Of a stretch of 64,000 nucleotides of DNA, positions 55,876 to 56,829 are shown one piece after another. The number at the start of each line of letters is the position of its first letter. The stretch's first letter is position 1. A program made the translations under genes and the position numbers. The stretch covers positions 1-64,000 of the forward strand of contig ONSU01000008.1 in assembly GCA_900320545.1 (NCBI GenBank), given 5' to 3'. A model generated the notes under the pieces. The model was not told the origin of the DNA. It did not search any database and saw nothing but the letters and a program-made list of their open reading frames with translations. This DNA comes from an uncultured Bacteroidales bacterium (lineage in GTDB: Bacteria > Bacteroidota > Bacteroidia > Bacteroidales > UBA932).

Positions 55876-56091
55876 TATCTTTGCAGCGGATTCAAATAGG
55901 ATCCCAGTTGAATACATCAAGAACACGCGGCTATGCGTGTACCAACCGAGCGATGAGACAAGAGCAGTCCCGGAGCCACGGTGGTTCGCCGAAAGGCGGA
56001 TGTGGGCATTATGCCAAAAATGACAGCGCTCAAGGATGTTATTGGAGGCAAGTGCCACGACTGGCATTTTTAACCAATAACATTTTTTATT
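55876..56091 (+). ncRNA. Structured leader RNA, candidate attenuator or riboswitch
   Basis: A perfect -7 box TATCTTTG (55876-55883) is followed by about 205 bases before the ATG at 56092. The stretch holds several hairpins: ACACGC-ggctat-GCGTGT (55923-55940), CGCC-gaaa-GGCG with a GNRA loop (55987-55998) that may be enclosed by CCAC/GTGG, and a terminator (56036-56088). AAAAATGACAG (56016-56026) is complementary in 10 of 11 positions to CTGGCATTTTT (56061-56071) inside the terminator stem, so it could act as an antiterminator. No coding function is convincing here. It matches no riboswitch class I can recognise. Confidence 0.65.
56036..56088 (+). terminator. Terminator immediately before the FGase start codon
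   Basis: ATGTTATTGG (56036-56045) pairs perfectly with CCAATAACAT (56074-56083); inside it AAGTGCCA pairs with TGGCATTT (one G-U) around a CGAC loop. Six T follow (56083-56088) and the ATG is at 56092. It either ends a small RNA or controls read-through and ribosome access of the next gene. Confidence 0.85.
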
Positions 56092-56829
56092 ATGTTTATT
56101 CCACATCGTCTCATTCTCCACATCCCCCATAGCGGGACGGAGTTCTACGACAATCAGAAACCATTCGCCCGATTATTCCTGGAGAAGGCCAGGGACCTCG
56201 TCGACTGGTATACCGACGAGCTCTTCTCGCCGGATGAAGGGGATAAAAGAATCCTCCCCGTTGTTTTTCCATTATGCAGGACGGCCTGCGACGTGGAGAG
56301 GATGACGGACGATCCGCTTGAGGAGAAGAATCTGGGAATCATTTATGATGGCGGAAACCCTCTCGGGGACCGGAGCGGTATCGTGTCGACAGGAGACCGC
56401 AATTACGCACAGGTCCGCCGCTACGACGAGTATGTCGGGCACCACCATAGGATGGAAAACCTGATTCTGAGCAATAGCGGCAGCCTGGTCATAGACTGCC
56501 ATAGTTTCAGCTCCGGGCCGACACTCCTGCTTCCCGACAGCGGGGCCGCATCGAAGTATGACATATGCATCGGCTTCAATGAGGACAGGACCAGGCCCGA
56601 TGACAAGTTTATCGGGACCGTCTGCAGTCACTTTGAAGCCCTTGGATACAAGGTCGGCGTCAACGAACCTTTCTCCAACTCAAAGACCTTCAGCACTCCG
56701 GTCATTTACAAATCCATAATGATCGAGGTCAACAAGCGGCTATATATGGACGAAGAGACACTGGAGAAAACGGAAGGATTCCGGATTCTCCACCGGCAGA
56801 TCCTGGACCTGTACGAAAAGATTCTTTGA
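56092..56829 (+). CDS. N-formylglutamate amidohydrolase family protein
   Basis: A 245-residue zinc hydrolase of the FGase family: LILHIPHSGTEFYDN with the metal-binding His/Ser, DWYTDELFSPD, VFPLCRTACDVERMTDD, and VIDCHSFSSGP with a metal-binding His. In the histidine-degradation pathway FGase removes formate from N-formylglutamate, but no hut genes are nearby and such single genes are frequent in Bacteroidota, so the substrate is uncertain. The start lies three bases after a terminator T-run, so expression must depend on read-through of the leader. Confidence 0.82.
   Translation: MFIPHRLILHIPHSGTEFYDNQKPFARLFLEKARDLVDWYTDELFSPDEGDKRILPVVFPLCRTACDVERMTDDPLEEKNLGIIYDGGNPLGDRSGIVSTGDRNYAQVRRYDEYVGHHHRMENLILSNSGSLVIDCHSFSSGPTLLLPDSGAASKYDICIGFNEDRTRPDDKFIGTVCSHFEALGYKVGVNEPFSNSKTFSTPVIYKSIMIEVNKRLYMDEETLEKTEGFRILHRQILDLYEKIL

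Follow-up and report, generated by a model that had tools for sequence, protein, structure and literature searches.

The question raised by this locus is what the RNA that precedes an amidohydrolase gene of the FGase family is, and how it acts on that gene. The window (the whole stretch of DNA that was analysed, 64,000 nucleotides) has about 205 nt of structured RNA between a −7 promoter box and the ATG of this gene. An earlier note had described a perfect −7 box, a structured leader of about this length, a strong terminator just before the ATG and a gene of the N-formylglutamate amidohydrolase type, and all four descriptions were borne out. The box TATCTTTG was found at 55876–55883, where it was matched to TAnnTTTG, which we take to be the Bacteroidetes −7 consensus. 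Folding of the leader (55885–56095) gave −70.7 kcal/mol with a z of −4.06, and the terminator hairpin gave −23.3 kcal/mol with a z of −6.20; in both cases, none of 200 shuffles was as good. The start codon at 56092 follows the terminator three bases on, and the gene product matches PF05013 and is the sole match to it in its genome. The features of the locus are as follows.

55876–55883, + strand: −7 promoter box, Bacteroidetes-type, TATCTTTG, fitting the consensus TAnnTTTG
55909–56031, + strand: SAM-I/IV riboswitch aptamer (RF01725), 47.5 bits against a gathering cut-off of 41.1
55911–55918, + strand: candidate antiterminator 5′ strand, AATACATC, at the position of the conserved helix of the relatives
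55914–55918, + strand: P1 5′ strand, ACATC, also part of the candidate antiterminator
55923–55940, + strand: P2 hairpin without internal loop, six contiguous pairs
55942–55984, + strand: P3 region; the apical GAGC (55962–55965) is the PK-2 5′ strand
55987–55998, + strand: P4 hairpin, CGCC-GAAA-GGCG
55999–56003, + strand: P1 3′ strand, GATGT
56005–56015, + strand: P5 hairpin, from the RF01725 alignment
56016–56026, + strand: A-rich strand between P5 and PK-2, proposed as antiterminator strand in the earlier note
56028–56031, + strand: PK-2 3′ strand, GCTC, pairing with 55962–55965
56032–56088, + strand: two-tier intrinsic terminator with a six-U run, from the fold and from terminators in relatives
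56035–56043, + strand: candidate antiterminator 3′ strand, GATGTTATT, within the terminator 5′ arm, with U56040 bulged
56092–56829, + strand: FGase-family (PF05013) amidohydrolase gene, 245 aa, Pfam 3.6e-24

The leader at 55909–56031 is an aptamer of a known class, the SAM-I/IV riboswitch. The earlier note had seen no class that it recognised, a statement that fails because an Rfam scan of the kind it suggested places the leader in RF01725, above the gathering cut-off. This match was the one retained in Rfam clan competition at the locus and the only RF01725 match within its own genome, where the SAM-I model (RF00162) gave no match. The RF01725 alignment displays P1, P2, P3 and P5 together with the conserved core. 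Positions at which SAM-I contacts its ligand are listed in PMC6890682. The window keeps AUC at 55916–55918, GA at 55921–55922, CAAC at 55943–55946, UG at 55982–55983 and A56000; at SAM-I position 59 we read a G opposite C at 43, instead of a C opposite G. In assigning these contact residues we presumed the SAM-I numbering of 57–59 and 87.

Comparison with the known classes gives the same placement. In PMC2864571, the SAM-I/IV variant is set apart from SAM-I and SAM-IV by a P2 without an internal loop. As far as the class is described in the portions of the sources consulted (RF01725; Weinberg 2010, PMC2864571; crystal structure 4L81), it shares with the window the SAM-I-like core, the P2 without internal loop, P4, P5 and a PK-2 between the P3 loop and the 3′ tail. 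The window P4, P5 and PK-2 also fit the arrangement of the solved aptamer, as set out in parts of PMC5393176 and PMC6890682. SAM-I resembles the window leader in its ligand-contact core and in setting P1 against an antiterminator, but has an internal loop and kink-turn in P2, whereas the window P2 is without an internal loop. SAM-IV shares P5 and PK-2, but according to PMC6890682 its P2 is split, P4 is absent and a PK-1 is present; membership of SAM-IV was rejected for the window leader, where P4 is present and P2 unsplit. The window differs from SAM-I/IV as published in its FGase-family target and its terminator platform, neither of which appears in those parts of the published descriptions.

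RF01725 was present in 21 of the 299 genomes of the window's family, in 34 of 393 genomes of the order (26 over the cut-off) and in 34 of 395 genomes of the phylum (30 over the cut-off), with the window's own genome included in each count. For the link to FGase genes we used the best 80 of 275 loci on named genome contigs from an FGase alignment scan, mostly rumen or gut Bacteroidales by title. We based a covariance model on 15 long-form leaders; it found the RNA in 40 of these 80 loci (E < 2e-6), always on the strand of the gene, superseding an earlier regular expression that had found the core in 32. Twenty-two of the 40 are of the long form, which like the window has a terminator, and 14 of these were members of the model; the other 18 are of a short form, in which PK-2 lies against the start codon. 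The short form is also present in a cultured strain of Prevotella ruminicola (L089). One of the 40, L073, has the RNA about 1.5 kb upstream of FGase. There were five weaker model hits, directly before FGase in L118 and L125 and before other genes in L100, L123 and L127. Among the FGase leaders in the script input, a −7 motif was present no more than 70 nt upstream of the aptamer in 15 of 22 of the long form and in 19 of 19 of the short form, against 5.3% of single-base shuffles.

Within the window's family, 15 of 299 genomes had FGase hits. All nine with E < 1e-90 have the RNA upstream, and the six genomes with weaker FGase (seven hits, some of them fragments) gave no RNA match in the fetched loci. 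The form of the RNA tracks the FGase clade in a midpoint-rooted tree of 73 of the 81 proteins (L063 is among those not in it). Long-form rows make up 22 of 26 on the window's side and are absent from the other side, where all 20 short-form rows fall inside a 29-row part; the label 'none' in this tree covers loci with little upstream DNA as well as L100, L123 and L127. In four loci (L055, L063, L068 and L078), the RNA precedes a fused gene whose FGase domain is extended at its N terminus by roughly 120 residues.

The covariance search of FGase leaders that the earlier note had proposed found a conserved and covarying structure upstream of homologues. Of the 15 long-form FGase leaders, 14 are distinct; in these, 91.6% of cells in the nested helices pair. 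Two-sided changes occur in 19 cells, compared with 4.5 in shuffles, and none of 500 shuffles reached this number. Versions of the test with the register slid gave at most three such cells. Among relatives, P4 has three pairs with two-sided changes and P5 has none; P3 is invariant across the long-form leaders and is therefore uninformative on covariation. Two leaders, L061 (2708–2849) and L067 (2661–2800), have an insert in the aptamer P2, with the P1 5′ strand shifted further upstream.

PK-2 is formed in the window by GAGC and GCUC. All long forms except L072 (21 of 22) had a helix of at least four pairs from the loop sequence GAGC or GAGU; GAGC pairs with GCUC in 17 of the 22, and in four the script chose another register. 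Since PK-2 is nearly invariant in the long forms, covariation cannot test it there. A free search with partners swapped, carried out with no restriction on position and with L061, L118, L125 and L031 unparsed, gave the long forms a mean of 13.8 against 12.8 with other partners. The decisive test was a position-restricted one on the short forms, preceding FGase and other targets, which gave a mean of 12.58 with the own partner against 7.96 ± 0.48 when permuted, with 0 of 2000 permutations as high. This test used 38 distinct loop segments from 54 parsed leaders, nine of the segments being from FGase leaders; L027 and L040 (without an A-tract), L047 and the long forms were left out. Four of the 38 segments (L033, L039, L042 and L044) pair no better with their own partner than with most strangers. 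Ahead of the non-FGase genes of L100, L123 and L127, the PK-2 3′ strand overlaps the start codon (GAATATG in L100 and GATTATG in L123, and beginning at the G of the ATG in L127), an arrangement for direct masking.

The terminator of the window has an outer stem (56032–56045 with 56074–56087), an inner stem (56050–56057 with 56062–56069) and a U-run at 56083–56088. A simple consensus terminator scan left it unlisted, which we attribute to its internal loop. The inner hairpin has a U5 of its own and could terminate even in the antiterminated state. A hairpin with a U-run was obtained by the folding script in 21 of 22 long forms, the exception being L074, and in L052, L058, L063 and L072 the script picked another or longer hairpin and not the conserved one. 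A search by pattern found the conserved terminator end with its U-run in all 20 relatives tried, including these four; L074 was left out, as was L066, a near-copy of L059 that was also omitted from the folding of the long forms and from the energy and pair-probability tests of the P1 5′ strand antiterminator described below. Both the curated covariance model and the conservation of terminators among relatives support the layout of a transcription-attenuating riboswitch that the earlier note had read. L074 (2794–2926), like L020, has a long-form leader without a U-run, in which a long hairpin reaches almost to the FGase ATG; control may have shifted towards translation there.

The leader is very probably a SAM-I/IV riboswitch acting as a transcriptional OFF switch. 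Transcription would start just 3′ of the −7 box. With SAM abundant, its binding to the P1/P3 core would hold P1 (55914–55918 with 55999–56003) and PK-2 (55962–55965 with 56028–56031), the terminator at 56032–56088 would form and the polymerase would halt before the FGase ATG. With SAM scarce, the P1 5′ strand would swap its partner for the terminator 5′ arm (55911–55918 with 56035–56043); the outer terminator stem would then fail and read-through would allow FGase to be made, presumably aiding methionine or SAM supply.

A SAM-I/IV riboswitch might instead act mainly on translation, with a hairpin three bases from the ATG blocking the start region regardless of whether the polymerase stops. The window terminator does end at 56088 with the ATG at 56092, and the hairpin of L074 adjoins the ATG without a U-run. 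In addition, the PK-2 3′ strand ends 0–2 nt before the ATG in 18 of 18 FGase short forms, which makes translational control probable within the class. In the window, however, the stable hairpin is followed by a run of six U. The U-run of the long-form relatives lies 48–95 nt before the ATG in 18 of 20 cases and is therefore too far away for direct masking of the start codon (the exceptions are L073, at 1.5 kb, and L061, where the start is ambiguous). We therefore consider a mainly translational action unlikely for the window, where the short distance between terminator and ATG leaves room for an added translational effect.

In the long-form relatives, an antiterminator that differs from the pairing in the earlier note is conserved and covarying. 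Its 5′ side consists of the bases just ahead of P1 plus the P1 5′ strand, and its 3′ side is the sequence leading into the terminator 5′ arm. This helix overlaps bases of both P1 and the terminator base, as is required of an antiterminator. Its mean energy was −11.2 kcal/mol over 22 leaders (including the window), compared with −6.5 ± 0.46 for shuffled 5′ strands and −9.2 ± 0.47 (lowest −10.5) for partners exchanged among leaders; L061 and L067 enter this mean with the wrong 5′ strand, the P2 insert having moved the true one upstream. Individually, p was at or below 0.05 in 12 of 22 long forms, many of them close kin, and above it in 10, with shuffles that ignore kinship. The common pair in relatives is GGAAATTTAC with GTAGATTTCC. 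It is replaced on both sides in L052 (GGAAGCA with TGCTTCC) and in L072 (GGATGCATT with AATGTATCC), in a comparison from which the window, L061, L067 and L074 were left out. Without ligand, the pairing exceeds 0.8 right after synthesis of the 3′ strand in 15 of 22 leaders. The SAM-I antiterminator draws on the P1 3′ strand. An antiterminator drawn from the P1 5′ strand, as in these relatives, likewise does not appear in the parts of the published SAM-I/IV descriptions consulted.

The sequence of the P1 3′ strand recurs in the terminator arm of the window, with GGATGT at both 55998 and 56034. This allows AATACATC to pair with GATGTTATT with one bulge. This duplex was no better than shuffles, with p 0.16 for restricted segments and p 0.556 for an unrestricted search. 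Its ligand-free mean pair probability was at most 0.40, reached with the transcript end at 56040, and P1 was more probable than the antiterminator at the other transcript lengths tried. As its position is homologous to that of the conserved helix of the relatives, we infer that the window uses a weak version of this antiterminator, 55911–55918 with 56035–56043; the helix is stronger in relatives such as L065.

The antiterminator proposed in the earlier note pairs 56016–56026 with 56061–56071. The complementarity, 10 of 11, is indeed present. The proposed function was not supported: 10/11 complementarity to the terminator somewhere arose in 8 of 200 block-shuffled leaders, so this pairing alone is weak evidence, and across relatives the A-rich strand mostly paired with the terminator 3′ arm no better than shuffles did (window p 0.075; lowest in L071, p 0.048, then L070, 0.050; L057, L068 and L074 unscored). 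The same pairing would underlie a SAM ON switch, in which holding P1 keeps its 5′ strand away from the terminator arm, yet 56016–56026 becomes free to pair with the inner terminator stem and SAM favours read-through. Given that the pairing is near chance and mostly fails in the relatives, and that 56016–56026 is part of the aptamer match, where it falls between P5 and PK-2, we regard an ON switch as highly improbable. A further candidate antiterminator, in which the A-rich/PK-2 segment would pair with the 5′ arm of the terminator, was also rejected, being no better than shuffles. The stand-alone small RNA offered as an alternative in the earlier note, merely preceding the gene, is scarcely credible: a promoter-like box and a terminator do frame a transcript of roughly 200 nt, but the RNA lies upstream of FGase-family genes on the same strand at many loci and matches a cis-regulatory riboswitch family, RF01725.

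SAM would be expected as the ligand of the window leader because RF01725 precedes metK elsewhere in the phylum (L030, L035, L043 and L046 by eye, and L148 by motif), and the window's own genome has metH and a metK that is preceded by a SAM-II riboswitch (RF01726, 58.1 bits, L178:1429–1489). SAM-II senses SAM by family assignment, as SAM-I/IV does, but is an Rfam family outside the SAM-I clan and lies on metK, whereas the window RNA precedes FGase. These family assignments suggest that two different classes of SAM riboswitch serve the one genome. RF01725 also precedes what we read as an NhaC-like transporter elsewhere in the taxonomic class (L154, L159, L161, L163 and L165); NhaC-like proteins have a link to methionine transport. 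Many RF01725 copies precede small genes or genes without an assigned function, and none of ten small downstream proteins was over a Pfam cut-off. Gene context therefore supports SAM here, short of proof.

The window protein had no match in NCBIfam at E 0.01, and a short-form FGase scored 17.2 bits against the cut-off of 278.75 for the HutG N-formylglutamate deformylase equivalog, TIGR02017. Among solved structures, the closest in sequence is 2q7s, an entry titled N-formylglutamate amidohydrolase, which matches over part of the profile with E 2.9e-10. Given SAM control, a role in methionine supply is plausible, and N-formylmethionine would be one candidate substrate. In eight FGase loci with neighbours inspected by eye there was no obvious common partner or shared methionine gene. 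We tentatively suggest, as a possible but somewhat doubtful reading, that the SAM regulon includes two FGase clades of rumen and gut Bacteroidales, each through a SAM-I/IV riboswitch with its own platform, and that these may be methionine-salvage deformylases and not histidine-pathway N-formylglutamate deformylases. If so, the platforms would be a terminator with a P1 5′ strand antiterminator in one clade and a pseudoknot against the start codon in the other, and the enzymes might act, for example, on N-formylmethionine.

The riboswitch class is known, and FGase is apparently unreported as its target. We found no paper linking SAM-I/IV or any riboswitch to N-formylglutamate amidohydrolase in a search that left most subscription journals outside, and among the matches listed for formylmethionine deformylase none had a title that bore on the subject. 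The analysis assigns a structured leader that was apparently unknown to an established riboswitch class. This offers a metabolic clue for FGase-family proteins outside every NCBIfam equivalog model, as found for the two members tested, and probably puts a little-understood amidohydrolase of gut bacteria under control linked to methionine. One enzyme family and one aptamer class with two platforms provide a natural comparison, from transcription stop to start-codon masking, in bacteria that make little use of Shine–Dalgarno sequences.

Other RF01725 copies showed features of their own. Defence genes were considered as SAM-I/IV targets and rejected, as three proteins gave no PADLOC match; the protein of L005 had no Pfam, NCBIfam or PADLOC match. 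Short-form RNAs in L003, L004, L005, L009, L011 and L022 precede small proteins that look related by eye and have CxxC motifs like those of zinc ribbons. Genome G563 carries four RF01725 copies on contigs C9 and C2, three of them within 2 kb.
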